Source of the DNA: Paraburkholderia sp. PGU19
GTDB taxonomy: Bacteria; Pseudomonadota; Gammaproteobacteria; Burkholderiales; Burkholderiaceae
Direction: 5' to 3'
NCBI RefSeq assembly: GCF_013426915.1
Contig: NZ_AP023179.1
Span: 1,612,001-1,676,000 of the forward strand
Length of the DNA stretch: 64,000 bases
Part shown: piece by piece, positions 948 to 24,760 of the stretch
Layout of the letters: each line of letters starts with the position of its first letter
How positions within the stretch are numbered: the first letter of the stretch is position 1
The notes under the pieces: generated by a model
Database searches by the model: none
Told to the model about the DNA's origin: nothing
The model's input: only the letters and a program-made list of their open reading frames with translations
Made by a program: the position numbers and the translations under genes

Positions 948-1035
948 TGACGGTATTTCTGACGGTATACGCGGGCAGCCTCTGGAGGAGCCTGCCTGAT
1001 ACCGTCAGGGGCGTTGACGGTATACGTGACGGTAT
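948..1035 (+). promoter_or_regulatory. Array of five TGACGGTAT sites in left end 1
   Basis: Forward copies start at 948, 960, 1015 and 1027, and one inverted copy (ATACCGTCA) lies at 999-1007. The two forward pairs are each spaced exactly 12 bp. The same arrangement recurs at 24355-24442, and a 12-bp spaced pair is found in each right end (24104/24116 and 58245/58257). The layout resembles accessory arm sites for a recombinase or a recombination directionality factor. The binding protein is unknown. Confidence 0.75.
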
Positions 1036-1354
1036 CTGAATCCGGGTGACGGGGGCCTGATTGCTGTGACGCCGATGTGTCAGTAGTTGGATTTCACGGG
1101 TGTTTCGGCTCCTGATCACGCTCCCGATTGTCGTCGGATAAAAAATCAGGATGACATAGTTTATTGGGGGTTGACCCGCTCCCCGATCTTCGCAACCTGG
1201 ACTCCATGTCAGATCGGGCCTATGTCAGTAGACATCGGGCAGAGAGGGGCCACGAGGCGTTATTCGCGCATACCATCGGTTTGACTTTCAGACGTCGAGT
1301 CAGCATCTGCAAACGGTCACTGGACAGCAAAAGACGAACGTTACTTGATCGGCC

Positions 1355-1607
1355 ATTGCTAATGGAATGTAGACCACCGTGAGGCAGTTGATAGGCGCTT
1401 TGCAGCCGCTCGCGCCGTCGTAGCCTTCAATGTCACGGCCGATGCCAGTGAATGAGTACTTGCGACCCTATTGGGACATTGGACACATCGACTCGAACGA
1501 CCGCGTCGCACGTCAGTGCTGCCATTCGCTTGAGCCCCGGCACCGCTCCGCAGCTCCTTTCTTCTTCACGGGCTCCGCGACGAACACGTTAGAACTCTTC
1601 CTGCATC
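1355..1607. other. Spacer between island left end and tetR
   Basis: I see no gene here. The short open frames lack ribosome binding sites and family resemblance. Confidence 0.5.
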
Positions 1608-2326
1608 CTAACGCGTCACGTCATCATGCAGGCAACCGTCTTCGCCTCCCAATGCATCAACTCGTTCAAAGATGGCGCCGCGTGGTGCTGGAGGATCGGC
1701 GATCCGCGCATAGGCAAGTTTGCGAGCTTCCTTTGCTCCGATGCCAAAGGCGCGCATGAGCGCACACATGGATTGCTCGGCGTAGTCGGCGGGGGCGTCT
1801 CCCGATAAAAGCGTTTCGATACCGTACATGATCGAGCCAAGGGCAATATCGCGCGCAACGACCACATCCACCACGTCGAATCGCCCTGCCTCAAGGGCCA
1901 TCTGCAGATCGCGAGTGAGGTACTCGTCGAGCAGGCGGCCTCGCGAACCGCGCTTCGTTCCCACCCGCGTGATGAACGCACCCCACAGCGGATACCGTGC
2001 CGCCATGGCCATATAAAGACGCGACCCCACCACCACCCGCTGGGCCGGATCATCGATCGCGCGCACGAGTGGATCGATAACCGCGAGAACTTCATCGCTG
2101 CTCTCGCCCGCCACCGCCGACAGCAGTTCCGCAGTCGTGCGAAAGTAGTTGTAGAACGTCCGCGGGCTACTCCCGCAGCCGCGATGAAATCGTCGATCGT
2201 CGGGGCGTCCGCTCCCTTCTCCGCAAAAACGCCCAGCGCACTCTCAATCAGACGAATGCGGGTCTTCTCGCGTCGCAACGCACCAACGCGGGTTCGATGA
2301 TTTTCAATCGATTCTGTCGCTTCCAT
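1608..2326 (-). pseudogene. TetR-family regulator, single-base frameshift
   Basis: The N-terminal part shows a TetR helix-turn-helix (RREKTRIRLIESALGVFAEK, then TIDDFIAAAGVARG). The C-terminal ligand domain, starting near SSDEVLAVIDPLVRA, lies in another frame. The switch falls near 2160, where the expected TFYNYF after GVARG reads RSTTTF. Restoring one base (GGACG to GGAACG on the coding strand) gives the canonical TetR motif and joins both halves. The gene is divergent from the FAH-VOC-hydroxylase operon and probably repressed it through the operators at 2394-2452. The frameshift may be real, leaving the operon constitutive, or it may be a sequencing error. Confidence 0.8.
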
Positions 2327-2393
2327 TGGCTATCCCGTTGATCTGGTTTGATTTTAGCAGCGCATAGGCTCTGCGGGTTTGTCCTGGATAAAT

Positions 2394-2452
2394 TCGTATT
2401 GACGAAAATGTCACTTTGAATAGAATTGGAACTGACAAATTCGTCAATACGA
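2394..2452 (+). promoter_or_regulatory. Promoter with twin TetR-type operators
   Basis: A -35-like TTGACG at 2399-2404 and a -10-like TAGAAT at 2421-2426 are separated by 16 bp. They are embedded between TGACGAAAATGTCA (2400-2413) and TGACAAATTCGTCA (2433-2446), both TGAC-N6-GTCA dyads. The outer 13-mers TCGTATTGACGAA (2394-2406) and TTCGTCAATACGA (2440-2452) are perfect inverted copies. A repressor bound here would cover the promoter of the downstream operon. Assignment to the neighbouring TetR is by position. Confidence 0.65.
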
Positions 2453-2502
2453 GATTCGGCATGCCCTGAGGCATTCCGTCTCTGGGTCTACAGGAGGCAG
2501 AT

Positions 2503-3351
2503 ATGCGGTTCGTTAGTTTCGAAAAGGATGGCAAGGCAACCCTCGGCGTTCGTGAAGGAGATCACGTACGTGTCGTCGGCGACGAGACGCTTGAGTCGCT
2601 CCTCGCGCGCGGCGTCCGTCTGGACGAGTACGCGAAGACAAACGCCACAGAGGAAAAGGTACCTGCCGCCAGCCTGAAGTATCTTCCGCCGCTGCAAAAG
2701 CCGCCGAAGATCGTTTGCGTGGGTTTGAACTACGCCGACCACACGAAAGAGAGCAAGTACGAGCAGCCCGACTACCCGACCCTGTTCCTGCGCGTTAATA
2801 CCAGTCTGGTTGCTCATGAGCAGCCGATGATCCGGCCCGGCGTTACCGACTCAGAAGGACTCGATTACGAAGGCGAGGTCGCGGTCGTGCTGGGCAAGGG
2901 TGGTCGCCACATTTCGAAGGAAAACGCGCTCTCACACGTCGCTGGCTATGCGCTCTTCAACGACGGCTCGGTGCGCGAGTATCAGTTCAAGACGCCGCAA
3001 TGGACCGTAGGAAAGAATTTCGATGGCACAGGCGCATTCGGTCCCGACCTCGTGACCGCCGACGAATTGCCCGCAGGCGCCAAAGGCCTGCTGCTGGAAA
3101 CGCGCGTGAACGGCGAACTGGTTCAGTCGGCGAGCACCGATGACATGGTGTTCGACGTCGCAACGCTCATCAGCGTGATCAGCGAAGCCATCACGCTCGA
3201 ACCAGGCGACGTGATCGTCTCAGGTACGCCGTCGGGTATCGGCTGGGCGCGCACGCCGCGGCTTTTGATGAAAGCGGGAGACCTTTGCGAAGTGACGGTC
3301 GAGAAGATTGGCACCCTGCGCAATGTGATCGCTGACGAAGCAACCCGCTAA
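2503..3351 (+). CDS. Fumarylacetoacetate hydrolase family protein
   Basis: A 282-aa cytosolic C-C or C=C bond hydrolase or hydratase of the FAH superfamily. The N-terminal lead-in (1-65) is followed by the catalytic fold starting PPKIVCVGLNYADH. Likely metal ligands are Glu123 and Glu125 in LDYEGEV and Asp154 in LFNDGS. The C-terminal block PGDVIVSGTPSGIGWAR is classic for the family. AGGAGG sits just before the ATG. It is the first gene of an operon with a ring-cleaving dioxygenase and an aromatic hydroxylase, so it most likely hydrolyses or isomerises the ring-fission product. The exact substrate cannot be read from sequence. Confidence 0.9.
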   Translation: MRFVSFEKDGKATLGVREGDHVRVVGDETLESLLARGVRLDEYAKTNATEEKVPAASLKYLPPLQKPPKIVCVGLNYADHTKESKYEQPDYPTLFLRVNTSLVAHEQPMIRPGVTDSEGLDYEGEVAVVLGKGGRHISKENALSHVAGYALFNDGSVREYQFKTPQWTVGKNFDGTGAFGPDLVTADELPAGAKGLLLETRVNGELVQSASTDDMVFDVATLISVISEAITLEPGDVIVSGTPSGIGWARTPRLLMKAGDLCEVTVEKIGTLRNVIADEATR

Positions 3352-3404
3352 TTTCCCATCGGCGAAGCCGGCCGACGAGCCGGCGCTTATCGAAATGGAG
3401 ACAC

Positions 3405-4361
3405 ATGGTCATGACCGATCCGGCAGCAGCATCTGCGCGTGCGAGTGTTCATTCGATCGATCACTTTGCACTCAACGTATCCTCGCTAGTCGAGGCCAAG
3501 CGCTTCTTCAGCGCGTTTGGCCTCGACGTGGCAGCAACAGTCGCAGAACTTCAGTTGCGCGCGGCGGATGGTCATCGCTGGGCGCGCATTTTTCCCGCTT
3601 CGAGAAAGTCGCTGGCGTATCTGAGTTTCAACTGCTTCGAACAGGACTTCGCGGCGATCCGCGATCAGGTCAAGGCGGCGGGCGCGGACCTCGTCGCGCC
3701 TCACGATCGAGGCGAAGCGTCTGGGTTCTGGTTTCGGGATCCGGACGGCAACCTGATTCAGGTAAAGACCGGTCCGAAGACGACGCCAGTCAGTAAGGCA
3801 CCATGCATCGTCGCGTCGAGTCACGCGGACGAGCGCGGCACACACACGCGCTCAGCAGCGAAGACGGTTCGTCCACGACGTCTCTCTCATGTGCTGCTGT
3901 TCTCGCCCGACGTCCTTCGTGCGCTGGATTTCTATGGCAAGGCGCTCGGTCTGCGTTTGTCGGACAAGTCGCTCGACATCATTGCATTCACGCATGCACC
4001 GCACGGCAGCGATCATCATCTGGTTGCGTTCGCCAGGAGCAGCGCGCGTGGCTGGCACCACGCAGCCTGGGACGTCGATAACGTGAACCTCGTTGGTCAA
4101 GGTGCATCGCAGATGGCCGCGGCAGGTTTCACAAAGGGCTGGGGTACCGGCAGGCACGTACTGGGCTCGAACTACTTCCACTACGTCCAGGATCCGTGGG
4201 GCTCGTTCTGCGAGTACTCCGCCGACATTGATTTCGTGTCTGCGGGCCAGACGTGGCCCGCTGGCGAATTCGCTCCCGAAGACTCGCTCTATCTGTGGGG
4301 CCCGCCCGTCCCCGACGACTTCATCCACAACACCGAAGCCGGCGTCGTTCTCGAAGACTGA
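3405..4361 (+). CDS. VOC-superfamily extradiol dioxygenase-like protein
   Basis: The 318-aa protein has two glyoxalase/extradiol domains: residues 14-122 and 158-275. Candidate Fe(II) ligands in the second domain are His162 (RLSHVLLF), His218 or His219 (GWHHAAWDV) and Glu270 (GSFCEYSADID). This matches the 2-His-1-Glu extradiol site and the two-module architecture of catechol 2,3-dioxygenases. It probably opens the ring of the diol made by the flavin hydroxylase at 4451. A GGAG lies a few bases before the start; a second ATG two codons later is also possible. Confidence 0.85.
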   Translation: MVMTDPAAASARASVHSIDHFALNVSSLVEAKRFFSAFGLDVAATVAELQLRAADGHRWARIFPASRKSLAYLSFNCFEQDFAAIRDQVKAAGADLVAPHDRGEASGFWFRDPDGNLIQVKTGPKTTPVSKAPCIVASSHADERGTHTRSAAKTVRPRRLSHVLLFSPDVLRALDFYGKALGLRLSDKSLDIIAFTHAPHGSDHHLVAFARSSARGWHHAAWDVDNVNLVGQGASQMAAAGFTKGWGTGRHVLGSNYFHYVQDPWGSFCEYSADIDFVSAGQTWPAGEFAPEDSLYLWGPPVPDDFIHNTEAGVVLED

Positions 4362-4450
4362 TCGCTTCAAACCCCTTTGATTGATTCCATGGCTGCCGGC
4401 TCATCCGGCGCCAGGGCACAACTCGCTCTTTTCTAAGCAGGTGAACTGAA

Positions 4451-6067
4451 ATGACAGATCAAAACATCCTCGACGTCGCAATTGTCGGTTACGGACCGGT
4501 CGGACAATCTCTCTCGATCCTTCTTGGAGAACGTGGTTATAACGTTGCGGTATTCGACCGCTGGCCATCGCTGTATCCGCTTCCGCGTGCCGTATTTCAC
4601 GACCACGAGATCCGTCGCGTGTTTCATGCGATGGACATTGGCGAGGACGTCGAGCGCATCTCGCAGCCGTCCGCCAAATATCAGTGGTTCAACGCGGACT
4701 GGAAGACGCTTGTCGAGATCGACTGGTCGGCGGAATCAATCAGCGACGGTCCGGTGGGCTACCTCTTCAATCAGCCGTCGCTTGAAGCACTGCTCGACAA
4801 GAAGGCTAAATCGCTGCCGAATGTGTCTGTGCAACAGGGCTGGGAGGCGACCCAATTGCAGCAGTTGCCCGACTGCTGCGAATTGACGCTGCGTCGCGGC
4901 GCAATGAACGGCGCAAACTGGGATCCGACCGGCGAAACTCAGACCGTACGCGCACGCTACGTCGTTGGCGCGGATGGCGCGAACAGCTTCGTGCGCAAGT
5001 CGCAGAACATCGAGTTCGACGATCTCGGCTTTCAGGAAGACTGGCTCGTCATCGATCTGAAGCCGAACGATGGTGTGACGCTCGACGTGCCCGATATCGG
5101 TCAATGGTGCAATCCGGCGCGGCCGACGACGATGGTGCCGGGCGGCCCCGGCTATCGTCGCTGGGAATTCATGCGCCTGCCGCACGAAACGATCGAGGAT
5201 CTGCAGAAACCCGAGAAGGTGTGGGAACTGCTGTCGCCCTGGGTCACACCGCAAAACGCGACGCTCGTGCGCTATGCCGTCTACAAGTTCCGCTCGCTGA
5301 TCGCGAGGAATTGGCATACCGGCCACGTGGTACTCGCGGGAGACGCCGCCCATCAAATGCCGCCGTTCATGGGCCAGGGCATGTGCTCCGGCATCCGCGA
5401 TGCCTGGAACCTCGCCTGGCGTTTCGATCTGATCCTCAAGGGAATTTCATCGGACCGTGTGCTCGAAGGGTACACGCCGGAGCGTCGTCCGCAGGTGCGC
5501 GCGGTGATCGATGCCTCTATCGCGATGGGGCAGGTCGTTTGCATCTCCGACAAGGACGAGGCCGCTGGCCGCGACGAAGCGTATCTCTCGGGTCAGGTGC
5601 CGCCACTTCCGCCATTCCCAGGTTTAACCGATGGCCTGATCTGCAAGGACCCTGAGTTCGCGTGCGAGAGCGTGGCCGGACTGCTGAGCGTACATGGCCA
5701 GGTGAACAACCTTGGCGAAGCATCGCGCTACGACGACGCCGTGCCCAACGGCTTTCACGTCATCGCGCTCGATGCGCACCCGAACCCATATCTCGACGCG
5801 AAAGGCAAGGCGGCGCTTGCTGCCATCGGTGGGCGTTCGATCGGCATCACGACCGACTCGGATAAAGCCGTCAAGGATCGGGTGCTGTACGACGTCAGCG
5901 GCAAGTACAAGCAGTTCTTCGATGAGCACGGCGTTAAAGCCATCGTCGTGCGGCCCGACTACTACGTCTTCGGCGGAGTGAAGACGCTTGAACAACTGCC
6001 GACGTTGTTGAGCGATCTCGTGTCGCGGCTGTCGATCGACGAACACGCGGAAGCGGCCGTTTCCTGA
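4451..6067 (+). CDS. FAD-dependent aromatic hydroxylase, MhpA-like
   Basis: A 538-aa class A flavoprotein monooxygenase, which inserts one oxygen ortho to a phenolic hydroxyl using NAD(P)H and O2. Visible motifs are the FAD dinucleotide fold (VAIVGYGPVGQSLSILLGERG, about residues 9-29), the DG motif GADGANSFVRK, and the GD motif AGDAAHQMPPFMGQGM. A C-terminal thioredoxin-like segment follows. The closest family by eye is 3-(3-hydroxyphenyl)propionate hydroxylase. AGGTGA precedes the ATG. Sitting with a dioxygenase, a hydrolase, a porin and an MFS carrier, it most likely starts degradation of a hydroxylated aromatic acid; the substrate is not defined. Confidence 0.88.
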   Translation: MTDQNILDVAIVGYGPVGQSLSILLGERGYNVAVFDRWPSLYPLPRAVFHDHEIRRVFHAMDIGEDVERISQPSAKYQWFNADWKTLVEIDWSAESISDGPVGYLFNQPSLEALLDKKAKSLPNVSVQQGWEATQLQQLPDCCELTLRRGAMNGANWDPTGETQTVRARYVVGADGANSFVRKSQNIEFDDLGFQEDWLVIDLKPNDGVTLDVPDIGQWCNPARPTTMVPGGPGYRRWEFMRLPHETIEDLQKPEKVWELLSPWVTPQNATLVRYAVYKFRSLIARNWHTGHVVLAGDAAHQMPPFMGQGMCSGIRDAWNLAWRFDLILKGISSDRVLEGYTPERRPQVRAVIDASIAMGQVVCISDKDEAAGRDEAYLSGQVPPLPPFPGLTDGLICKDPEFACESVAGLLSVHGQVNNLGEASRYDDAVPNGFHVIALDAHPNPYLDAKGKAALAAIGGRSIGITTDSDKAVKDRVLYDVSGKYKQFFDEHGVKAIVVRPDYYVFGGVKTLEQLPTLLSDLVSRLSIDEHAEAAVS

Positions 6068-6096
6068 CTTCAACAGGAATGTCACTGGAGGGGAAC

Positions 6097-7197
6097 ATGA
6101 GGAAGACACTATGCGCGCTGGTCGCATCATGCGCATTCACCTCGCACGCTCAAGCGCAAGGCAGCGTGACGCTGTTCGGTATTCTCGACGTCGGCGTGAG
6201 CTATGTGAGCAACGAAAACGGACACCACAACTTCAAAGCTGACGACTCGATCTGGACGCCCAGCATCTGGGGCATCCGTGGCGTCGAAGATCTGGGCGGA
6301 GGCTACAAGACCCTGTTCGAGCTTGCGTCGCAGTTCTCAGTGAACAGCGGCGCAGGAATCCCGGGGCCCAATGCCGATTTCAACCGACAGGCTGTCGTCG
6401 GTCTGTCAAAAGACGATGTTGGACGCATTACGTTCGGTCAGCAATACAACCTGATGGCGGATTTCCTCTTCTTTCCGCCTGCGAGACTGGATGGAGCCTT
6501 CACTTATGGCGGCCTTTACAACATGCGCCAGGGACCGTTCGCCGCGCTCGGCATCCCGCAGAATCCGACCGGCTCGTTCGACTTCGATCAGACTGGCGGG
6601 ACTTCGCGCGTGTCGAACTCGGTCAAGGTCGAATCCGCCACCTTCGCAGGTTTGAGACTCGGCGCACTGTACGGCTTCGGCAATACGCCCGGCTCATTTT
6701 CCGCGAACAACACGATCGGGTTCGGCGTGAACTATGCGATCGGCGGCTTCGGCATTGCGGCCGCGTACAACGAAACCCGCTACCCGGCGCTAAACGACGG
6801 TCACGACGGAATCCGCAATTTCGGCGGCGGGCTCGGTCAGACCATCGGCGACGTGTATCTCAACGCGCTCTACACCAACACGCGCAATACGCTGACGGGC
6901 GGCGTCGTGCAGGCGGTTCAGGTCGGCGGGCTGTACACGTTCATGCCGGACATCCGCTTCGGCGCGAACTATCAGTACATGAAGGGCAACGCGCAGCTCA
7001 GCCACAACAGGGCGCAGCAAATCACGAGCGCCGCTCAGTATCTCCTGTCCAAGCGCACGACGTTGTACGCCGAAGCCGTCTACCAATGGACCGGCGGCGA
7101 CGTAGAAGGCGGGCACAACGCCTGGATCAACGGCGCGGGCCAGTCGAGCACCACGCATCAGGTCATCGGTCGGCTCGGGCTGCAGACCGCTTTCTAA
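6097..7197 (+). CDS. Gram-negative porin (OmpC/DcaP-like of Burkholderiaceae)
   Basis: Outer-membrane beta-barrel of 366 aa. The start used is the ATG at 6097, which has GGAGGGG before it and opens a clean signal peptide (MRKTLCALVASCAF...AQA); an in-frame ATG at 6079 would only add the ribosome binding site. The mature protein starts QGSVTLFGILDVG, typical of this family, and ends with aromatic Phe (GRLGLQTAF), the outer-membrane assembly signal. As part of the aromatic operon it probably admits the substrate. Confidence 0.9.
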   Translation: MRKTLCALVASCAFTSHAQAQGSVTLFGILDVGVSYVSNENGHHNFKADDSIWTPSIWGIRGVEDLGGGYKTLFELASQFSVNSGAGIPGPNADFNRQAVVGLSKDDVGRITFGQQYNLMADFLFFPPARLDGAFTYGGLYNMRQGPFAALGIPQNPTGSFDFDQTGGTSRVSNSVKVESATFAGLRLGALYGFGNTPGSFSANNTIGFGVNYAIGGFGIAAAYNETRYPALNDGHDGIRNFGGGLGQTIGDVYLNALYTNTRNTLTGGVVQAVQVGGLYTFMPDIRFGANYQYMKGNAQLSHNRAQQITSAAQYLLSKRTTLYAEAVYQWTGGDVEGGHNAWINGAGQSSTTHQVIGRLGLQTAF

Positions 7198-7289
7198 CGC
7201 GTTTCCCTTTCTCAATGCGTGCGCGAATCCGTCGTGCACGCCGGACGGTCGCATCTGACGACGTCGTTATTTAATTGGAGATCGCAAAC

Positions 7290-8543
7290 ATGGAATACAG
7301 CACCGGTTCCAGGTGGGATACCGCCTATGAGTGGAAGGCCGTGGTCCTGCTGTCACTGGGCTTCGGACTGGTCGGCATCGATCGGTTCATGATCATGCCG
7401 CTCTTTCCCATCATGATGAAGGATCTGCATCTGGACTATCAGGACCTTGGCCACATCACCGGTGCTCTGGCCGTCGCGTGGGGTGTCTCGGCGATGTTCA
7501 TGGGAAACCTGTCCGACCGCATCGGCCACCGCAAGGTGATCATACCCGCGATCATCGTATTTTCGCTGTTAGCGGGCTTGAGCGGCCTTGCGACGGGCGT
7601 CGGCTCGCTGGTCCTGATTCGCGCGGCGATGGGCTTTGCCGAGGGCGCGTATACGCCTGCGAGCATTATCGCGACCCTTGATGCATCAAAGCCAACGCGT
7701 CACGGTCGGAACATCGGCATGCAGCAGATGGCGCTGCCACTGTTCGGCCTGGGTATCGCGCCGATCCTCGTGACGCAACTGCTCAAGGTATTACCGTGGC
7801 ACTGGATCTTCGCGGTGGTGTCGATTCCGGGTTTGCTGGTTGCTTTCCTGATGGTGAAGGTGCTGCGCAATACTCAACCAGCGGCGGCTGCATTGCACAC
7901 GGCGACGGACGACACCGCCCTCCACAAGTGGACCGGTATCTTTCGCTACCGCAACATATCATTGAACATCGTCGGCATGCTGTGCTGGCTGACGTGCCTC
8001 GTCGTACTGAGCGCGCTTTTTCCCAGCTACCTGATCGACTACCTGCACTTGAGCATGCAGCAGATGGGTTACGTGCTTTCGGCGATTGGCTTCGGCGGCA
8101 CGCTTGGCACGCTCGTGATGCCGGCGCTTTCCGATCGACTGGGAAGAAAGCCGGTCATGATCTGTTCGGTGGTCGGCGCGGCCGTCTTCCTGTTCCTTCT
8201 GATGCGGACCGGTGCGAACCCGACATTGCTGTTCACGTACCTCACGCTCACGCTTCTTTTTGTCTTCAGCATGATCACACTGACAGTGGGACCGTTGAGC
8301 GCGGAATCGGTACCGGCGAAACTGATGTCAACGGCTTCAGGTCTGGTGGTCGGCATTGGAGAAGTCTTCGGTGGTGGACTCGCACCGGCGATTGCGGGTT
8401 ACATTGCCAAGCATTTCGGGATCCAGTACATCATGCATCTTGGGCTGGCTGCGCTCGCCATCGGATTTGTCGTGACGCTCAGTCTGAAGGAAACGGCACC
8501 CGCCCGGGCGCGCTTGCAGGCGCCTGCCGTCGCCTTGGACTGA
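7290..8543 (+). CDS. MFS transporter, aromatic acid/H+ symporter-like
   Basis: Inner-membrane carrier of about 417 aa with twelve predicted membrane segments and the MFS loop motif GNLSDRIGHRKVI between TM2 and TM3, repeated as ALSDRLGRKPVMI in the second half. The ATG at 7290 is chosen because TTGGAG lies 10 bases before it; a TTG at 7275 overlaps that site. It is the last gene of the aromatic operon and probably imports the compound degraded by the upstream enzymes. The substrate is inferred from context only. Confidence 0.88.
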   Translation: MEYSTGSRWDTAYEWKAVVLLSLGFGLVGIDRFMIMPLFPIMMKDLHLDYQDLGHITGALAVAWGVSAMFMGNLSDRIGHRKVIIPAIIVFSLLAGLSGLATGVGSLVLIRAAMGFAEGAYTPASIIATLDASKPTRHGRNIGMQQMALPLFGLGIAPILVTQLLKVLPWHWIFAVVSIPGLLVAFLMVKVLRNTQPAAAALHTATDDTALHKWTGIFRYRNISLNIVGMLCWLTCLVVLSALFPSYLIDYLHLSMQQMGYVLSAIGFGGTLGTLVMPALSDRLGRKPVMICSVVGAAVFLFLLMRTGANPTLLFTYLTLTLLFVFSMITLTVGPLSAESVPAKLMSTASGLVVGIGEVFGGGLAPAIAGYIAKHFGIQYIMHLGLAALAIGFVVTLSLKETAPARARLQAPAVALD

Positions 8544-9475
8544 TGGTGCGGCGCGTTGAGTCTTGACAGCGGTCGCCAGCGTGACGCTGATCGCGCTCAA
8601 TCCGCTCGGGGCTCCGAGCAGCGGGCTGCCCCGCGGATCGATGCGCTTCGAGCGGAACAGGTGGCGGCTAGACTCCGCACCGCGGCCATTCAGCGTGCAG
8701 AGGTGGGCGTCGCTTAATGACCGGTAGTACTCGTTGACATCAGAAGCCAGTGAGCAGCCATTGAGGATCTCAACGACCGCTCTGCAGAGCGGTCTCGAAC
8801 TGGTGCAATCGGCCAGTTGCGGCCATTTAAACGCGCTGTTTGACTGACCGCTTTCGCGCGATGACCTGCCCGACGAGGAAGAGAGGACCGGCCGCATATT
8901 GATTCTGTGCATGTACAACTCAGCGTGCTGTGGCCAGGCCATGCAGGATCGCTGGGTATCGAAGCTCGGCAGGATGTGTGCGCGCGTTCAGCGTGGGCAG
9001 CGCACGAGGCAGCCGCCTGAATCTGTCCGCGGTCGAGGCGCTCACGCAGGCGCATGGTGAGCACGTATCGCAGCAAGTAGCGGGACCGAGTTTGCGGACG
9101 ACGAACTGCCATGCACAGTCACTACCGTCTGCGATAGTGGCACCGCCGGGACGTATCCGTTCTGACCGGGCGGTCCGTCAAGGTTCACGGGGACTATGCA
9201 CCCCGACTGTTGCACCGGGGCGCACCACGCAAAAGCGGGCGTCGCGACCTTCTTTTCTTTCGTGCAGCATGTCGGTTGGGGAGCAGCGGCGAGCGCCAGC
9301 CGGTTCTGACGCGGCGCACCAAAAAAGGGGAACGTGTTCGTCAAAGCGACAATTTTTGGTCCAGCCTCAAAATTGCGCGGAATATTTTCCTTGACGATCT
9401 CGGATCCATATCCCAAAAATACACTGTCAGTGCTTGATTTACCGGGCAAGGCGTCCGCGCCTCAAGGAGCTCCGG
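8544..9475. other. 932-bp intergenic region upstream of napE
   Basis: No gene is supported. Frames such as 8930-9394 have composition and starts typical of chance ORFs. The region must contain the nap-ccm promoter, but I cannot place convincing -35/-10 boxes or an FNR site (TTGAT-N4-ATCAA). A TTGACG at 9391-9396 lacks a good -10 at normal spacing. Confidence 0.45.
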
Positions 9476-9634
9476 ATGAATGAGAGCAAGGAATTGCGCA
9501 AGTCAGAAGAGCTGCGAAGCTTCCTCTTTCTGACTGTCGTCATGGTTCCCGTGTTGACGGTGATGCTCATTGCGGGTTATGGATTTGCAGTATGGTTTTA
9601 CCAGCTGCTTATTGGTGGCCCGCCTCACCACTGA
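9476..9634 (+). CDS. napE: Periplasmic nitrate reductase subunit NapE
   Basis: A 52-aa membrane peptide with a charged N-terminus (MNESKELRKSEELRSF) and one membrane segment (FLFLTVVMVPVLTVMLIAGY), ending YQLLIGGPPHH, matching NapE. AAGGAG is well placed before the ATG at 9476; the open frame extends 14 codons further upstream but without a binding site. It is the first gene of the nap operon. The role of NapE is not well understood; it is an accessory component of Nap systems in many proteobacteria. Confidence 0.9.
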   Translation: MNESKELRKSEELRSFLFLTVVMVPVLTVMLIAGYGFAVWFYQLLIGGPPHH

Positions 9635-9675
9635 TATGAAAGCACGCCGGTTCCCCACGATCCGGAGTCAGACTC

Positions 9676-14950: not shown

Positions 14951-14955
14951 CACAC

Positions 14956-15845: not shown

Positions 15846-16322
15846 ATGAAAGTCCGTCATCGACGCCTCGTGCTGATCGCGGGCGGACTCGGCAGCGCCG
15901 GCCTCGCGTGCGCGCTCGTGCTGAATGCGTTTCGGGCGAACGTGATGTTCTACGTCAGCCCGAAGCAGATCGTCGCGCATGAGATACCGGTTGCGCACCG
16001 GTTCAGGCTCGGCGGTCTAGTCGAACGCAACTCGCTTCGACGCGACGCAGACGGTTTGACCGTCCATTTTGTCGTGACGGATACGGCGGCGGAAATTCCG
16101 GTGATCTATCGCGGCGCGCTGCCCGACCTGTTTCGCGAGGGAAGTGGCGTGGTCGCGCAGGGTGTGCTCGGCGACGACGGCCAGTTTCATGCAGACGAAG
16201 TGCTTGCGAAACACGACGAGAAATACACGCCGCCCGCCGTCAGCGATGCACTGCGCCACGCACAGGGGGCATCTACCGTCAGGGTCGCGACGGGCGCGGC
16301 CGATCGAGGAGCACAGCGGTGA
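15846..16322 (+). CDS. ccmE: Periplasmic haem chaperone CcmE
   Basis: A 158-aa membrane-anchored haem chaperone. An N-terminal anchor (LVLIAGGLGSAGLACALVLNAF) precedes the OB-fold with RLGGLVERNSL, FVVTD and VIYRGALPDLFREG. The covalent haem-binding histidine lies in AKHDEKYTPP. It starts immediately after the ccmD stop and overlaps ccmF by 4 nt (GTGA). Confidence 0.95.
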   Translation: MKVRHRRLVLIAGGLGSAGLACALVLNAFRANVMFYVSPKQIVAHEIPVAHRFRLGGLVERNSLRRDADGLTVHFVVTDTAAEIPVIYRGALPDLFREGSGVVAQGVLGDDGQFHADEVLAKHDEKYTPPAVSDALRHAQGASTVRVATGAADRGAQR

Positions 16323-18370: not shown

Positions 18371-18906
18371 AGCGCTTTCTCGTTCCGCTGGCGGTTCTAG
18401 CAGGCCTGCTGGCCGTCCTGGCTGCCGGCCTGCGGCACGACCCGCGCACGCTGCCTTCGGCATTGGTCGGCAAACCCGCCCCGGATTTCACGCTTCCGCG
18501 CCTTGATACCTCGGGCGAGACCATATCCTCGCGCGCGATGCGCGGCCAGGTCTGGATTCTGAATGTATGGGCGTCATGGTGCGAACCGTGCCGTGACGAA
18601 CAGCCGGTGCTGGCCGATTTTGCGTCCCGTCGCATTGCGCCCGTTCTAGGGTTGAATTACAAGGATGACCGGCAGAACGCCATCCGGTGGCTCCAGTTAG
18701 CAGGCAATCCCTATACAGCGTCGATTGTGGACCGCACGGGAGACACAGCTATCGACTACGGCGTCTATGGCGTGCCGGAAACATTTGTGATCGACCGGGC
18801 GGGCATCGTGCGATATCGGCTTGCAGGTCCACTCACGCACGCATCGCTCGATAGTGTGATCGTGCCGCTCGTCGGGAAGCTGCAACGCGAGGCGGCCCAT
18901 GACTAG
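18367..18906 (+). CDS. ccmG: Thiol:disulfide oxidoreductase CcmG (DsbE)
   Basis: A 179-aa membrane-tethered periplasmic thioredoxin that reduces apocytochrome c cysteines. It has an N-terminal signal anchor, the TlpA/DsbE lead LVGKPAPDFTLPRL, the active site WASWCEPCRDEQP, and the conserved cis-Pro segment YGVYGVPETFVIDRAG. The start overlaps the ccmF stop by 4 nt. Confidence 0.95.
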   Translation: MKRFLVPLAVLAGLLAVLAAGLRHDPRTLPSALVGKPAPDFTLPRLDTSGETISSRAMRGQVWILNVWASWCEPCRDEQPVLADFASRRIAPVLGLNYKDDRQNAIRWLQLAGNPYTASIVDRTGDTAIDYGVYGVPETFVIDRAGIVRYRLAGPLTHASLDSVIVPLVGKLQREAAHD

Positions 18907-19393
18907 TCGCGCACATCGTTTGGTGAATCGCTTTGTGGCCGCGTTGCTGCTGGCTTTGTCGATGGCACTGGCCGCGTCGAGCGCAGCCGGACAGGCCGCA
19001 TACCAACCGCGGGCTGAAGCGCGCGTACGGCATCTGGCCGAAATGTTCAGGTGTCTCGTCTGCCAGAACCAGAGCCTCGCGGATTCGAATGCCGAACTGG
19101 CCGCGGATCTGCGCAACCAGATTCGTGAGCAGATCCGCATAGGAGCCAGTGACGAACAGATTCAGGCCTACATGGTGCGCCGTTATGGCGACTTCGTGCT
19201 CTACCGGCCGCCCATCAAACCTGTCACGTGGGCACTCTGGTTCGGACCGTTCATAACGCTTGCGGCAGGCGCCGTCGTGCTGGTTCTCAGCATCCGACAC
19301 GCACGAAACGTACGTCCCAGGATGCTCAGTCAGGATGAACGTCGGCATGCAGATGCGCTGCTTGACGGTCACAATGAGGGCGCACGGCGATGA
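18899..19393 (+). CDS. ccmH: Cytochrome c biogenesis protein CcmH (CcmH/CycL)
   Basis: A 164-aa membrane thiol oxidoreductase with signal peptide, the catalytic motif RCLVCQNQSLADSNAELA, then IREQIRIGASDEQIQAYMVRRYGDFVLYRPP and a C-terminal membrane span. It hands reduced apocytochrome to the lyase with CcmF and CcmI. It overlaps ccmG by 8 nt and ccmI by 4 nt. Confidence 0.95.
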   Translation: MTSRAHRLVNRFVAALLLALSMALAASSAAGQAAYQPRAEARVRHLAEMFRCLVCQNQSLADSNAELAADLRNQIREQIRIGASDEQIQAYMVRRYGDFVLYRPPIKPVTWALWFGPFITLAAGAVVLVLSIRHARNVRPRMLSQDERRHADALLDGHNEGARR

Positions 19394-20661
19394 TGAGCTT
19401 CTGGATTATCGCTGGGGCGATGATCGCCATTTCCGTGGCATCGGTGATCGTGCCACTGCTGTGCCGCGCGGCGCCATTGCGCGAAGATCACGGATTGGCG
19501 GTTGCTCTCTATCGGTCGAGTATCGCCGATCTCGATCGTGAGGTTGCCGCCGAGCACCTGTCCGATGTTTATCGCGACGACGCTCGCGTCGAACTTGAGC
19601 GCCGCCTCGTGGATGAAACGTGTGGCAGTGTCACTACCGCGCCAGTGAGTCGACCAGGAGGTGTTCTGAGGCAATCTGGAATGGCTGCGCTGATGCTGGC
19701 GCTGCTGCCATCGGCTGCCGCGGTGCTTTACATGCGTCTCGGCGATCCGGCCGCAGTGGCAGTGGAACGTGGTGGCGAAGGAGAGTGGGGTGTTCACGTC
19801 GCGACGCCGGGCTCGCTGGAGGTTGCCGTCAGCAGGCTGGCGGCGCATCTGCGTCAACAACCTGACGATGTCCCAGGATGGGCAATGCTCGCGCGCTCCT
19901 ATGTTGTTCTAGACCGTACTGATGATGCCGTAATTGCATATCGCCGTGCTTTGGCCTTGAAATCTGGTGACGCTGATCTGCTTGCCGACTACGCCGATGC
20001 GTTGGCGACGGCCCGAGGCGGTGATCTGAATGGCGAAGCATTGCAGAGCATTGACGCGGCGCTCGCGGCGGATCCCGTTCATCCGAAAGCGCTGGCACTG
20101 GGCGCGTCTGCTGCGCACGACAGACAAGACTACGCGCTGGCGATCCAGTATTGGGAGCGGCTGGAAGGGGTCGCGGACCCGGGCTCAGAGATGGCCAATC
20201 AGGCACAGAAAAATATAGACGCCGAGAGAACGGCGGCGATTCACACGAGTGTCTTGCCAATCGGCGATTCACCGAAGGACGTGCAGGAACATCGGACGTT
20301 TCGTTCCTTCGAGTCGGCGACTGTACTCGAAGTACATGTACGGCTGAGTCCGGCGCTTGCGGCGCGCACGCACCCGCATGATCAGGTGTATGTCTATGCC
20401 CTCGCCGATGACGGCTCGCGCATGCCTTTGGCCGTGCAGCGCGTAGAAGTCGAACAATTGCCGTCGACGTTGCACCTGGATGATTCGATGGCGATGACGT
20501 CCAGCAGGCGACTGTCCGACTTCGAGCGGGTAATCGTTGAGGCCCATGTGTCGGGGGTGGGCAATGCACAACTCACTCGGGGCGATCTCATCGGGAAAAG
20601 CGGACCGGTAGAAAGGGGGCGCAAAGTCGTCGACATCACGATAGGCAATGTTGTCAGATGA
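19390..20661 (+). CDS. ccmI: Apocytochrome c chaperone CcmI with TPR domain
   Basis: A 423-aa protein equivalent to the C-terminal half of fused CcmH proteins. An N-terminal membrane pair (WIIAGAMIAISVASVIVPLL and a second near MAALMLALLPSAAAVLYMRL) flanks a short loop with DLDREVAAEHLS. The TPR region (about 150-250) reads WAMLARSYVVLDRTDDAVIAYRRALAL and LGASAAHDRQDYALAIQYWE. A C-terminal IgG-like domain follows. It ends the ccm operon; the next 293 bp contain no gene I can support. Confidence 0.92.
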   Translation: MMSFWIIAGAMIAISVASVIVPLLCRAAPLREDHGLAVALYRSSIADLDREVAAEHLSDVYRDDARVELERRLVDETCGSVTTAPVSRPGGVLRQSGMAALMLALLPSAAAVLYMRLGDPAAVAVERGGEGEWGVHVATPGSLEVAVSRLAAHLRQQPDDVPGWAMLARSYVVLDRTDDAVIAYRRALALKSGDADLLADYADALATARGGDLNGEALQSIDAALAADPVHPKALALGASAAHDRQDYALAIQYWERLEGVADPGSEMANQAQKNIDAERTAAIHTSVLPIGDSPKDVQEHRTFRSFESATVLEVHVRLSPALAARTHPHDQVYVYALADDGSRMPLAVQRVEVEQLPSTLHLDDSMAMTSSRRLSDFERVIVEAHVSGVGNAQLTRGDLIGKSGPVERGRKVVDITIGNVVR

Positions 20662-20954
20662 TGAACGCCCCAAAGGGCGCCGAGATCACGACTACTCATG
20701 TCCGCCTGTACCGGGGGGCCGCAAGGGACGTAACTGCATGACCCACCGCGTGCGCCAGGAGTGGGTGATCCTCAAAGGTAAATGACCGCGGTGGGGCGCT
20801 GTACGGTCGTTTGCCAGGAAGACTTCTGAGTCCGTTCAGCGTCGGGTTGTGCCCTTCGCAACCGTGGGGCGCTCTCGGGAGATCAGCGCTGCGCTCCAAT
20901 GCGACTCTCGGTTGCTGCGCGCAGAGGAGGGCCAAAGTGGCTTCGGGCTTCTCA

Positions 20955-21263
20955 TCAGGGATGCGACTGCTTGCACTCCGTTTCGAACCAATGGTCGACC
21001 AGGCGCTGCGCCGCGTGTAGGTTCGCTGGGTAGTGTGGGTCGTCGTGCCACGGTGACGGGTTGTAGCCCGCTTTCCTCAGGGCCGAAAGCTCGCTTTGGT
21101 GTTGCGACTTCGTCCGAGGAGCGTTGCTTCTAATCGCGGCCAGGTCACGGCACTCCGTTGGGCTCAGATGTGGCCCGCTTTGTGGCACGCCGGCGACGGC
21201 ATTTCCTGTCAGCAGGAGCGCCCACGCCGCAAGCGTCGAGCAGTTTCTCTGGAGGTTTCCCAT
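20955..21263 (-). CDS. Small secreted DUF4148-like protein
   Basis: A 102-aa protein starting at the ATG whose complement is 21261-21263, preceded by TTTGGAG. Residues 1-25 form a signal peptide (CSTLAAWALLLTGNAVA). The C-terminal part, ELSALRKAGYNPSPWHDDPHYPANLHAAQRLVD, resembles the DUF4148 repeat (LEQAGYNPxxxDPxYPxxIQAAE) common in Burkholderiaceae. Function is unknown; such proteins are periplasmic. The open frame runs further upstream but without homology. Confidence 0.7.
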   Translation of the reverse strand: MGNLQRNCSTLAAWALLLTGNAVAGVPQSGPHLSPTECRDLAAIRSNAPRTKSQHQSELSALRKAGYNPSPWHDDPHYPANLHAAQRLVDHWFETECKQSHP

Positions 21264-21509
21264 AGCGCATCTCCAAACGTCTGGTCGGCGCAACGCAAGC
21301 GATGCGATGCCGCCAAGAAAATCGCCAACCAACATGTCATCGAGGGCAGGCGGGAGCGGCAGCAAGCGTAGACTCCGCGGCGTTGCACGTGAGCAGCGTC
21401 TTGACGAGTTCCTTCCACGCTGCCGAGATGACCGCGCGGCGAGCCTTGCCAAACGGGTCGTGCGCTGGCGTTTCCCGCAGACGGACACCTCTCGATCGGC
21501 GCGCACGGC

Positions 21510-21920
21510 TCAATGCGAACGGCCGTGACCGCCACCTGCTGCCCAGAAGTGGCCGCCACCACCCCAGCTATGAGTGCCGCCCCAGCCGCCACCGCTCCAG
21601 CCATGAGTTCCGCCCCAGGCGCCGCCGCCATTCGAGCCGGCGTGTGTGGTACCCCACGAGCCGTGACCGCCGCCCCAGTTGCCATGACCACTCCAATTGC
21701 CATAGTGGCCCCAGTGGCCGTAGTAGCCGTAGTGGCCGAAATGGTCGGGGTGGCCATGGACGTGGCCGCAACAGCCGCTGAAGAAGACGAAGCTGAACGA
21801 CACCGACGGCCACCAGAAACCCGGCCAACCGTAAGCGTAGTACGGGTACGGATAGTAATACGGGTAGGGATAGGCGATCGGGTAGTACGCAGGCGCCTTG
21901 GTCGGGCACGGACGGTCTTT
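21510..21920 (-). pseudogene. Tyr/Pro- then Gly/His-rich secreted-type protein lacking its N-terminus
   Basis: On the complement strand an open frame runs from just after a TGA at 21921-21923 to a stop at 21510. The first part is rich in Tyr and Pro (YYPIAYPYPYYYPYPYYAYG), then GWPGFWWPSVSFSFVFFSGCC, then a long Gly/His/Trp-rich tail with repeated GGTHSWGGG-type units. There is no ATG; only a GTG at 21803 could start a 97-aa product. Similar proteins normally carry a signal peptide, which is absent, so truncation is likely. The function of such proteins is unknown. Confidence 0.45.
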
Positions 21921-22112
21921 TCAGACTGTCCTGAGGAATAAGTCGTCGGCGCGCCTCGTTTATCACTACCGTCGATGCCTGCATTCGCGAAGAACCGCGT
22001 GACGCGTCCGCCATCCAGGCGGAAGTTCGGCATCTTCGGTAATAGCGTGATTAATGCCTCACTGGACATCTCTGCGCGGGACTTCTTGCGAGCTTCCCTG
22101 GGAGGAGTGATC

Positions 22113-22259
22113 ATGAAGCGGCTTCGGATAGTTGTTGCGTGTCTCGTTTGCCTCGGAATTGCCGCGGCTTCAGGGCCTGCGGTTGCGGGTGGTGATATGA
22201 ATCAAGGCGGCAACGGCGCGTCTGGCAGTTCAACCAATTCCTCTGGCGCCGGTTACTGA
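22113..22259 (+). CDS. 48-aa putative secreted peptide
   Basis: GGGAGGAG lies at ideal spacing before the ATG at 22113. The product has a clear signal peptide (MKRLRIVVACLVCLGIAAAS...AVAG) and a mature tail of about 22 residues rich in Gly, Ser and Asn (GGDMNQGGNGASGSSTNSSG). No function is recognised. The strong ribosome binding site and signal peptide argue that it is expressed and exported. Confidence 0.6.
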   Translation: MKRLRIVVACLVCLGIAAASGPAVAGGDMNQGGNGASGSSTNSSGAGY

Positions 22260-22724
22260 ACGCCGCACGCCAGGGTTTACCGAGCGCGCGGGATGGTGCC
22301 GCCCGTTAGCGGCGTTCCTTTCGCTCCACCGACCCGAAAGCGCCGGCCAGCACGAGCGGCACGAAGCCATGCCGTAAAAGCTTATGATCCGCCAAAGAAC
22401 ACGAGCCACAATCCGCCGTTCAAATGCGTCGTCGGTTGGACGTTCACGAGTCGGCTTTCCCCGCGTTTCCGGTCATCCGATTCTCAAAGGCGGACGCTCC
22501 TTCATCGGCCCTATGTGAAGCTTCCCGTAAGGCCGATGAAGCCCCTCTCGTCCACCAACCGGACACGATCACTGGCAATCTGCATCGTCTCGAGTTGCGC
22601 GATTTGTCGTGTTTAGGCAGGGTCGGGTCTTGTGCTTCAGATTCGCGGTCCAGCTTTCAAATCAACAGAGCCTAACCACGGTCGTAACGGTCCCTCTGAA
22701 ATACCGTCAGTTAAGGCGACTACA
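22260..22724. other. Intergenic region before the DUF3047 gene
   Basis: No gene, RNA or clear regulatory element recognised; the open frames are short and lack binding sites. Confidence 0.4.
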
Positions 22725-23528
22725 ATGGACGCTAGCCAAAAGACGAATGTGACAGCCATGCATCTTCTCTCGATTCGTCGGGCACGAAAGCGAACAACCC
22801 GGCCAGTCTGGATCACCGCGTGCGTCACGCTCCTTCTGTTGCCGCCAGTCCTCTTTGCCCAGGACGAAAAGCCGGGCATTGCCTTTTCCACGATCAAGCC
22901 CGGCGCACCGATGCCCGCGGGCTGGAAGAACCTGCCGGTCGCGCACGGCAAACCCATGACGCAATACACGCTTGTTTACGACGGCCACACCACCGTCCTG
23001 CAGGCGGACGCGAACCGCTCTGCTTCTGCGCTGATGCACGAGGGTAATATCGACCTCGGCCGCACACCCGTCGTGGCATGGCGCTGGAAAGCAGAAAGAC
23101 CGATCGAGGGCGCCGACAACCGCGTCGGATCTAAGGAAGACGCGCCAGCGCGACTGGTGTTCCTATTTGACGGCGACAAAAGCAAACTATCGTTTTTCGA
23201 CCGAGCCAAGATGGACGTGGCAAAGCGCTTGGGTGGCGAGGAGTTGCCCTATGCCACGCTGATGTATATCTGGTCGACCACGGCCGCGCCAGGCACTGTC
23301 ATTGCCAACCCTCACACGGACCGCGTACAGATGATCGTGGTCTCCGGTCTGTCCGGCGATGCGGGTCAGTGGCAAAGCCTGCGCCGCAATATCGTGCAAG
23401 ACTACGAACGGGTCTTTCACGAACCACCAGGACGAATCACCGGCTACGGGCTGCTGACCGATACCGACAATACTGGTACGACAACACGCGCGTGGTACGG
23501 AGACCTCGAGTTCCTGCCCGGGCCTTGA
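22725..23528 (+). CDS. DUF3047 domain secreted protein
   Basis: A 267-aa protein with an N-terminal signal or anchor (VWITACVTLLLLPPVLFAQD). The body matches the DUF3047 pattern, with GWKNLPV near the N-terminus, then VVAWRWKAERPIEGADNRVGSKEDAPARLVFLFDG, LMYIWSTTAAPGTV, and RNIVQDYERVFHEPPGRITGYGLLTDTDNTG. The family is periplasmic and of unknown function. An ATG at 22758 is an alternative start that gives a shorter lead before the signal peptide. Confidence 0.82.
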   Translation: MDASQKTNVTAMHLLSIRRARKRTTRPVWITACVTLLLLPPVLFAQDEKPGIAFSTIKPGAPMPAGWKNLPVAHGKPMTQYTLVYDGHTTVLQADANRSASALMHEGNIDLGRTPVVAWRWKAERPIEGADNRVGSKEDAPARLVFLFDGDKSKLSFFDRAKMDVAKRLGGEELPYATLMYIWSTTAAPGTVIANPHTDRVQMIVVSGLSGDAGQWQSLRRNIVQDYERVFHEPPGRITGYGLLTDTDNTGTTTRAWYGDLEFLPGP

Positions 23529-23750
23529 TAACGCAAAGCCGCTGTAGCCGTCTCACAGATGCCAATACCTGAGTGTCAGCAATGGCCGAGGTCTTGCCCT
23601 TGAGCTACCGACCGTAGGGACCGCTGCGCTCCGATACCTGCCATTGAACGAGATCGATAGCGACGGTCGGGATTGGGTCGACTACTGTCCTCTGGACGCG
23701 CGCAAAGCTGCCGTTCGACCTGATCGTGTGCTCGACGTCAGCAACTAATC

Positions 23751-23790
23751 ATAGCCGCCGTTGGCCGATGGTCGCGCCAACGGCGGCTAT
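23751..23790. repeat. 15-bp perfect inverted repeat
   Basis: ATAGCCGCCGTTGGC (23751-23765) is followed after 10 bases by its exact complement GCCAACGGCGGCTAT (23776-23790), directly abutting the conserved island right end. No T-run follows, so it is not a standard terminator. It may form a strong hairpin. Confidence 0.7.
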
Positions 23791-24196
23791 GGCCGACAAG
23801 CGGCAGCCAACCCTGGATGAGCGAATGGCCGTTGGACTTTGGAAGCGGTCGTAGTTTTCGCGGCGAGCCGAACGCAGGCATTGGGGTCGTCGAGAGTCAG
23901 AGAGAGGAAGGCTGGCCAACATCGGTGCAGTAAAGATGAGCTATGGGATCCGCACGGTCGCACGCTCACAGGTGACGGCAGGCGGGCGCGGCGGCCGAGT
24001 GGCGTCGGTGATGTGTGTAAGCTTGCTACGGGAACGCGCCGGACCAAAAAGGAAACACTCAGGCAGGCGCGGGGCGAGGGCGTTTTTTTCAGTACACCTC
24101 CGGTGACGGTATACCTGACGGTATCCGGTCTGCCACCATCAATAAAATCCTTTAGATTCAATGACATTTAAAGATAAAAGATAATAGAGTGGGAGT
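23791..24196 (+). repeat. Island right end, copy 1
   Basis: About 406 bp aligned end to end with 57931-58337. It contains two TGACGGTAT sites at 24104-24112 and 24116-24124 (12-bp spacing), a 7-T run before them, and ends with AATA plus the att core. Open frames on both strands do not keep frame between the two copies, so I regard the end as non-coding. Confidence 0.85.
24187..24196 (+). other. Middle attachment core between the two islands
   Basis: GAGTGGGAGT, identical to the end of guaA. It is preceded by right-end sequence of island 1 and followed by left-end sequence of island 2, so it is both attR of one and attL of the other. It followed tandem insertion at the same target. Confidence 0.85.
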
Positions 24197-24760
24197 AATT
24201 ATTTAAATAATAGCCTTTGAAATCAAAGGCATACGTTTCGTATCGAATTATTTGCGCAAGCTTTAAATTGGCGGGAGCAGGGTGCTAACCCATTGAAAAA
24301 TATGGGGATTTTTATCATGTTAACAATACTCCTGCTGTTGCAATGGCTCCGATTTGACGGTATTTCTGACGGTATATGCGGGCAGCCTCTGCAGAGGCCT
24401 GCTCGATACCGTCAGAGGCCTTGACGGTATACGTGACGGTATCTGGAACTGGGTGACAGGGCATGATTGCTGTGACGCCGTTGTGTCAGTCGCTCGATTT
24501 CACGGGTGTTTCGGCTCTCTATCACGCGCGCGATTGTCGTCGTATCAGAAATTAGGACAACATATTTTATTAAGGGTTGACTCGCTCCCCGATCTTCGCA
24601 ACCCGGACTCCATGTCAGATCGAGCCTATGTCGATAGACATCGGGAAGAGAGCGGCCACGAGGCGTTATTTGCGCATACCATCGGTTTGACGTTCAGACG
24701 TCGGGTCAGCGTCTGCAAACGGTCACTGGACTGCAAAAGACGAACGTTACTTGATCGGCC
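24187..24760 (+). repeat. Island left end, copy 2
   Basis: Homologous to 780-1354. The palindrome ATACG-TTT-CGTAT is at 24231-24243. TGACGGTAT sites start at 24355, 24367, 24422 and 24434, with the inverted copy at 24406-24414; spacing is the same as in copy 1. Homology stops at TTGATCGGCC (24760). Confidence 0.85.

Follow-up and report, generated by a model that had tools for sequence, protein, structure and literature searches.

The present study concerns the ends of two genomic islands that lie one behind the other at the 3' end of guaA in Paraburkholderia sp. PGU19, within a 64,000-nucleotide stretch of contig NZ_AP023179.1 that was analysed as a whole (hereafter the window). The original prediction had noticed arrays of the word TGACGGTAT at these ends and had read them as an asymmetric recombination complex, with arm sites for a recombinase or an excision factor. 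In our analysis, the arrays are very probably the attL and attR arm sites of a guaA-specific tyrosine integrase with a PF13356 N-terminal domain, of the epsilon15/P4 kind. Beyond the window, we propose with considerable confidence that the beta-hairpin of this domain (PF13356, DUF4102) reads the arm word by a code. The residue equivalent to position 50 of the Proteus guaA integrase L087 would set base 4 of the word (Arg for C, Glu for G, Gln or Asp for T), the residue at 52 would set base 7 (Arg for C, otherwise mostly T), and the residue at 43 (Asp, Lys or other) would go along with them; domain and word would have switched together many times relative to the catalytic domain, the attachment-site language of an element would be predictable from its integrase, and integrase-less islands could be matched to helper integrases within one cell or excluded for them.

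Each island carries five exact TGACGGTAT sites in its left end and one 12-bp pair in its right end, at the following positions, all from a sequence scan:

948..956, plus strand: arm site, left end 1, pair 1
960..968, plus strand: arm site, left end 1, pair 1
999..1007, minus strand: arm site, left end 1, inverted
1015..1023, plus strand: arm site, left end 1, pair 2
1027..1035, plus strand: arm site, left end 1, pair 2
24104..24112, plus strand: arm site, right end 1
24116..24124, plus strand: arm site, right end 1
24355..24363, plus strand: arm site, left end 2, pair 1
24367..24375, plus strand: arm site, left end 2, pair 1
24406..24414, minus strand: arm site, left end 2, inverted
24422..24430, plus strand: arm site, left end 2, pair 2
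24434..24442, plus strand: arm site, left end 2, pair 2
58245..58253, plus strand: arm site, right end 2
58257..58265, plus strand: arm site, right end 2

The five sites per left end and the one pair per right end had been predicted exactly as found; the extent that had been given, 948..24442, does hold such sites and leaves out the right end of the second island (58245-58265, core at 58328). Two further exact single copies lie in the island interiors, at 22701 and 30523, both on the minus strand. With at most one mismatch, TGACGGTAT has 29 matches in the window against 8.37 expected from shuffles, and the pair TGACGGTAT-N3-TGACGGTAT, allowed up to three mismatches, has six, every one exact, against 0.01 expected.

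The core of the guaA 3' end, GAGTGGGAGTRA, is seen three times in the window, at 780, 24187 and 58328, and the gene is therefore followed by two islands in tandem:

9..791, plus strand: 3' part of a gene that we take, from its sequence, to be guaA (GMP synthase); basis: open reading frame, sequence and homologous gene in relatives
780-791, plus strand: core GAGTGGGAGTAA, within the guaA 3' part, left edge of island 1
792..24198, no strand: island 1 (23.4 kb); basis: open reading frames, Pfam (5 proteins) and a whole-genome PF00589 scan
24187..24198, plus strand: core GAGTGGGAGTAA, separating islands 1 and 2
24199..58339, no strand: island 2 (34.1 kb); basis: open reading frames, Pfam (4 proteins, one without family) and the PF00589 scan
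58328..58339, plus strand: core GAGTGGGAGTGA, far edge of island 2, followed by native guaA downstream sequence

In both islands the right pair begins 83 bp before the core (24104 to 24187; 58245 to 58328) and the first left pair 168 bp past it (780 to 948; 24187 to 24355). Between island 1 and island 2 the arm bases are identical throughout (45/45 left and 18/18 right, or 63/63), against 228/288 (79%) and 201/234 (86%) of the non-arm aligned columns, which bears out the predicted maintenance of core-relative positions within diverged surroundings. The same contrast appears among eight left ends from Paraburkholderia and Trinickia, where pairwise identity is 88% in arm columns and 51% in columns within 60, and among five right ends (100% against 65% in nearby columns). 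The arm region carries single-base indels, and the ends did not prove to be coding there with a conserved reading frame. About 170 bp past the arms, a frame beginning MSDRAYV is open in three copies (window 1206-1355 and 24614-24765; L021 2013) and alike over about 50 codons, its substitutions few and without clear third-position bias, too few to judge coding. The geometry can be read directly from the sequence, and so can the empty site: in the related genome G053 (L639), guaA (99.2% identical to that of the window across 260 compared residues) continues directly into a homologue of the window's sequence after the last core (79% over query bases 1-98), and the islands are therefore exact insertions.

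Ends of the window type at guaA are here called class A, and the other guaA ends of the genus (inner L210, L216, L217) class B. On the right side, class B has two arrays ahead of the core, one a pair or near-pair at a distance of about 211 bp and the other a near-pair at 83 bp; on the left side, in L210 and L217, it has a near-pair with the words TGACGGTA[AG]. An integrase adjoins class B ends only in L210, and none was found in L217. Single arm sites are altered in some further left ends (G063, G101). Three unusual arrangements were also seen. In L213 (G010 C79, 18417-18607) only 103 bp separate a right-end pair from a class A left end, and the guaA core is missing from the interval, as in fused ends; L215 (G101, 14030-14117) has a second class A left end without core or right end, immediately behind other sequence, which looks like a truncated copy; and L210 (G139, 8502-18510) is a hybrid array, in which an island of class A on the left and class-B-like on the right precedes a guaA-integrase element.

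A scan for the exact pair, as the original prediction had suggested, found 52 pairs in 31 of 144 genomes of the genus; the reversed control pattern was not among the matches listed. In one genome per species (84,980 species) the pair occurs in at least 117 stretches from many phyla, some of them surely by chance, and in viral contigs in 50 stretches. Within this genome, the C3 near-match (L007) was considered as a further island end and rejected, as it sits in coding-looking sequence between two frames, presumably transketolase-like and transporter-like; another weak match (L008) has two mismatches.

What recognises the word is suggested by its neighbours. Among 224 pair instances (204 loci, some overlapping), 63 (59 loci) lie from -50 to 600 bp upstream of the nearest integrase match, and all 63 are co-oriented with it; for 14 more the integrase is located in another part of the locus, and 147 have none. 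Some of the remaining pairs belong to the other end of an element, or to class A and ribE islands. Pairs just upstream of PF13356-type integrases occur in records of several phyla. Distances to the guaA core are discrete: besides the window's own, the right pair stands 82-84 bp before it in 20 loci, and the left pair follows it at 124-128 bp in 22 loci and at 165-171 bp in the class A type. Nine proteins from pair loci were compared with Pfam, and eight proved to have Arm-DNA-bind_3 (PF13356) together with Phage_integrase, the ninth (L080) being of another type. The target at pair loci is guaA in some cases; several pairs lie near tRNA genes, and the Paraburkholderia group also has islands at the ribE 3' end.

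The converse approach, from integrase to repeat, was taken with 61 PF13356 integrases ranked by family score, independently of their arms, to avoid circularity. A 9-mer repeated at 12 bp (at most one mismatch, within 450 bp) was found upstream of 29/61 and downstream of 4/61, with words such as TGGGGGTAT, TTACGGTAT, TGTTGGTAT and similar. TGACGGTAT itself (at most one mismatch) occurred upstream of only 15 and downstream of 7, so it is the word family, not this word, that is general. When arms were scored (20 of 198 distinct integrases were dropped for having less than 150 bp upstream), a TGNNGGYAT pair at a score of 4 or less was found for 54/121 motif-independent integrases, against 0/605 shuffles, 2/121 reverse complements and 11/121 simple reversals. 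The TGACGGTAT sites thus look like arm-type sites of tyrosine integrases with Arm-DNA-bind_3 (PF13356; P4/IntSXT group), and the arm word, judged by these comparisons, is one member of a TGNNGGYAT family arranged in 12-bp direct pairs.

The members of this family differ at base 4, and the integrases differ with them. We assembled 66 non-redundant integrases with arms, 38 of class C at this base, 17 of G, nine of T and two outside these classes. One alignment column separates the classes, with Arg in 38/38 of class C, Glu in 16/17 of class G and Gln in 9/9 of class T (63/64 classifiable rows), and two further columns covary with class (Asp/Lys/other and Thr/Leu-Arg/other). An AlphaFold2 model of L087 (mean predicted local distance difference test score 84.2, predicted template modelling score 0.50) has strands at 38-46 and 49-57, and the three specificity residues are 43, 50 and 52 in its numbering. 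By the geometry of such a hairpin, 43, 45, 50 and 52 should face the same side; every one of the 18 sequences in alignment A5 has Arg at 45, which does not hold for every row of the training alignment. Arg-G, Glu-C and Gln-A are standard residue-base pairings, and the Arg/Glu/Gln rule fits such contacts, which would be made on the opposite strand. Solved structures of the arm domain exist (3ju0, 3jtz).

By this rule, the integrase matching TGACGGTAT would have Asp/Arg/Thr at positions 43, 50 and 52 (L087 numbering). The whole genome has 30 PF00589 (tyrosine recombinase) matches, with none in the window, and integrase-profile searches found none within both islands (tyrosine recombinases; serine recombinases were not scanned for), so that a tyrosine integrase hidden in the islands was ruled out. 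The genome's three PF13356 integrases, all outside the window, have Lys/Glu/Leu, Lys/Ser/Glu and Arg/Gln/Met at these positions; since none has the Asp/Arg/Thr set, none should, by the rule, fit the window's word. Both islands are thus, as far as their sequence tells, integrase-less elements akin to cis-mobilizable elements (CIMEs), with intact attachment sites. The integration genes are absent and presumably were lost. We conclude that both islands are probably orphaned at present and would become movable on the arrival of a matching integrase.

The favoured explanation runs as follows. The integrase would hold the arm pairs by its N-terminal beta-hairpin and the guaA core by its core domain; such an integrase would have put the two islands successively into the guaA 3' end, and the core would have been rebuilt at each insertion. 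The enzyme may have been encoded in the element or supplied in trans; the islands may once have been autonomous, or they may always have been moved in trans. The second possibility was considered in its own right, namely that the islands are non-autonomous elements mobilised by transient integrase-bearing guaA elements, not mere relics. This is a tenable alternative, and we lean slightly against it. All three guaA islands with a class A left end and both ends placed (the window's two and the first G139 island, whose far end is of class B type) have no integrase match and have kept their arms. In G139, an element with an intact Asp/Arg/Thr guaA integrase stands in the same array as this hybrid-ended island. 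Among the five other genomes with class A ends, G139 is, however, the only one with such an intact integrase (one of six class A genomes, counting the loci examined only; five PF13356 matches fell outside that set), and arms may persist from an earlier autonomous life. G101 has only an Asp/Arg/Lys integrase fragment, and G084 a 60-residue fragment, 40 residues of which align with the guaA integrase of G139 at 77.5% identity.

Islands at ribE, whose product has lumazine-binding domains, also come both with and without an integrase, which would again suit mobilisation in trans. No integrase was found in the 5.8-kb L219, in the 44-kb L220-L222 or in L228 (its right end only a candidate), whereas L223-L224 has an internal one, with relatives 80-91% identical in L226 and L229 (right ends unplaced); a conserved internal integrase is common to three of the ribE islands examined further. 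These ribE integrases, which lie kilobases from the island ends and outside the training set, have Asp/Arg/Thr, and the ribE island ends carry TGACGGTAT, as predicted. Sorted by eye in the Paraburkholderia group, ribE-3'-end islands with TGACGGTAT pairs comprise left ends in L009, L012, L016, L017, L018, L022, L030, L031, L035 and L153 and right ends in L019, L026, L034, L046, L071 and L135.

The residue-base rule on its part might be an artefact of common ancestry or of fetching sequences by the motif itself. Indeed, 33 of the 38 class C training rows had been obtained by the motif or from a guaA locus chosen for its arms. The G and T rows (save P4, taken as a named phage) and five C rows are, on the other hand, motif-independent, and only three columns stand out from the alignment, with z-scores of 32.0, 24.3 and 15.5 against 5.9 for the next best. 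Moreover, the rule was tried on a held-out set of 233 new viral loci found by protein queries (training integrases, grouped by class, to which a single ribE integrase was added). Of 232 integrases, 69 had no upstream sequence; of the remaining 163, 88 were at least 70% identical to training members and 27 more were redundant, which left 48, 19 without a pair at the score limit and 29 with arms. The rule agreed in 27/29 (Glu-G 18, Gln-T 4, Arg-C 5), the other two being split between copies, and none of 200,000 permutations reached 27. For base 7 in both copies, Arg went with C in 10/10, Leu or Met with T in 8/8, Thr with T in 8/10, and Val with T in 0/1 (one copy has T).

Ancestry was addressed with a quick tree built from the catalytic parts of 85 integrases (79 for base 7), leaving out rows whose copies disagree at base 4 and those with short catalytic parts. 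This tree requires a minimum of 24 changes of the word and 25 of the residue. Over the 79 rows, C at base 7 goes with Arg in 15 and Lys in 1, and T with other residues in 63. Independent pairs on supported branches were concordant in 5/5 for C, 4-5/5 for G, 4/4 for T and 4/5 for base 7, with none against; such pairs (4-5) are too few for a sign test to reach 0.05, a point that leaves some room for ancestry, and the best tree irrespective of support gives 18, 18 and 8. With these results before us, we consider an artefact very unlikely.

The rule was also followed from word to protein, in sets that partly overlap the earlier ones (the training rows were drawn from the C set, and some contigs of the T and G sets may recur in earlier sets); of 177, 124 and 72 occurrences of the motifs, 63, 6 and 48, respectively, were followed by an arm domain. 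Counting distinct domains no more than 450 bp beyond the pair, those behind TGGGGGCAT have Glu in 41/41 and Arg at the base-7 position in 37/41, and those behind TGNTGGTAT have Gln in 6/6; of the 51 behind TGACGGTAT, 48 have Arg, two have Gln and one lacks the residue. The row without residue (L069) has a broken or short frame. In L185 and L191 a TGACGGTAT pair stands 357-380 bp before an Asn/Gln/Thr integrase, on the far side of the guaA core, and the stretch between core and integrase has copies ending in ATGGTAT, with T at base 4; the pair may thus close an adjacent element as its right end, and base 4 would then be T as Gln predicts. In L185, L191 and L194 alike the guaA core stands between a TGACGGTAT right pair and an integrase, and it may serve there as a common core for two elements whose arm words differ.

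Several observations nonetheless weigh against what we propose. The locus L622 (the same as L032, with a partial domain) has Lys/Glu/Arg, with Glu beside C/TGGTGGTAT, and contradicts the rule. At four Asn/Asp/Thr loci (L610, L612, L613, L635) the arms are TGGTGGTAT-like, and Asp also goes with T; we read these as a probable further class of the code. Among the 121 motif-independent integrases, 67 lack a pair at the strict score, their arms being diverged, elsewhere or of other words, and repeats of period 10 are likewise enriched near the 61 integrases (17 upstream against 7 downstream). The five-site left end adjoins no integrase gene in any locus examined, and its cognate enzyme is thus a presumed one; its fifth site, moreover, is absent from three of the eight left ends (G139, Trinickia soli and L024), so that the pair, the inverted copy and the next direct copy form the more constant part. 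For KplE1 IntS, which may be of the PF13356 type, a TAAA arm motif is reported in the cited passages of PMC2951348, and relatives need not all use such words. Among other departures, L359 has Pro with G, and L631 has Lys with TGGGGACAC, outside the word family. Repeats of period 22 near the 61 integrases were also enriched (12 against 3).

That the protein bound at the sites is not the integrase but an excision factor or a transcription factor is hardly credible, for although the pairs stand where int promoters are expected in integrase-bearing relatives (a matter of position only), the epsilon15 annotation, the IntS sites of ICEMlSymR7A in the cited passages of PMC11963761 and the way the word covaries with the arm domain of the integrase itself speak otherwise. 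Of the recombinase or excision factor offered by the original prediction, the evidence favours the former, and the asymmetric recombination complex it proposed gains support from that annotation, from the position of pairs upstream of integrases and from the covariation.

The cargo of the islands is largely metabolic. Island 1 has catabolic genes, a nap-type molybdopterin oxidoreductase, a NapC-type cytochrome and cytochrome c maturation genes including CcmF, together with a fumarylacetoacetate hydrolase family protein and an FAD-binding monooxygenase-like protein (both by Pfam); island 2 has glutamine-synthetase-family and other catabolic genes, a Rieske oxygenase, an alanine racemase and others. 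Of nine cargo proteins of both islands compared with Pfam, eight fall in metabolic or cytochrome families and one has no family. A DDE transposase gene lies just past the last guaA core, at 58535-59668, outside both islands.

Arm sites of this sort have been described before (epsilon15, P4, ICEMlSymR7A, KplE1), worked out one element at a time. The original prediction knew of no described family with the motif; the exact word is in fact that of epsilon15 and phiV10, with sister words in P4 and ICEMlSymR7A, and the idea of an element family unknown to annotation was rejected, since the epsilon15 and P4 records already mark such repeats. In the epsilon15 record, all four protein_bind features of the integrase are GTGACGGTAT in the stretches examined. 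The attP sites of epsilon15 and phiV10 resemble the islands in having their core at the guaA 3' end (GAGTGGGAATGA), the arm word TGACGGTAT and an inverted copy (there near the integrase); phiV10 has the word at places matching epsilon15, and its own integrase is of the PF13356 type. Unlike the islands, these are complete phages, with single copies instead of a 12-bp pair on the left and the integrase beside the core. According to the cited passages of PMC8138268, DUF4102 integrases belong to the IntSXT subgroup, and guaA is the site of the epsilon15 cluster. The islands share with that cluster the insertion at the guaA 3' end with duplicated core and the arm word, and they have no cognate integrase within the element, so they are not complete members of it.

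The P4 record annotates six 12-bp attP arm sequence repeats, all of which have GGGGGCA(T/C) and four of which have TGGGGGCA. In the P4 attP, as at the islands, 12-bp pairs flank the core on both sides and an inverted copy stands by the integrase-side pair, and this topology is found in full at the islands; P4 differs in its word, GGGGGCA(T/C), in its core and in its integrase, which has Lys/Glu/Arg where TGACGGTAT would call for Asp/Arg/Thr. For IntS of ICEMlSymR7A, five P/arm-type motifs with the consensus TGKTGGTATC are described, all five being needed for efficient integration (PMC11963761, cited passages). The five arm motifs recall the islands, whereas base 4 is T, the target is another and the element is a full integrative and conjugative element (ICE) with its own integrase. 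Neither island has a tyrosine integrase of its own, as an ICE or an integrative and mobilizable element (IME) would. The ribE (riboflavin synthase) islands have TGACGGTAT in their ends, like the window, and several have the 24-mer TGACGGTATTTCTGACGGTATACG in common; they differ in their target gene, and some have an internal PF13356 integrase and others none.

The closest parallel for the islands as they now stand is the accretion of CIMEs, in which attL and attR are kept, integration genes are gone and elements stand in tandem at one site (PMC5704250, cited passages). The islands have kept attL and attR, lack integration genes and lie in tandem at a single site. In those passages a CIME is a decayed ICE or IME, whereas here we have two large metabolic islands with double arm pairs at guaA. 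For the window, the motif is accounted for, and both islands are probably stuck unless a matching integrase arrives. More broadly, a residue-to-base rule tested on held-out sequences would locate the attachment sites of many islands, ICEs and prophages from sequence and would pair each orphan island with the integrases able to move it, and the evolution of arm specificity would become directly testable. The rule itself was not found in print in searches of the open-licence literature. Arm sites and tandem CIME-like islands are, then, known kinds; the residue-base rule is what the present comparison adds to them.

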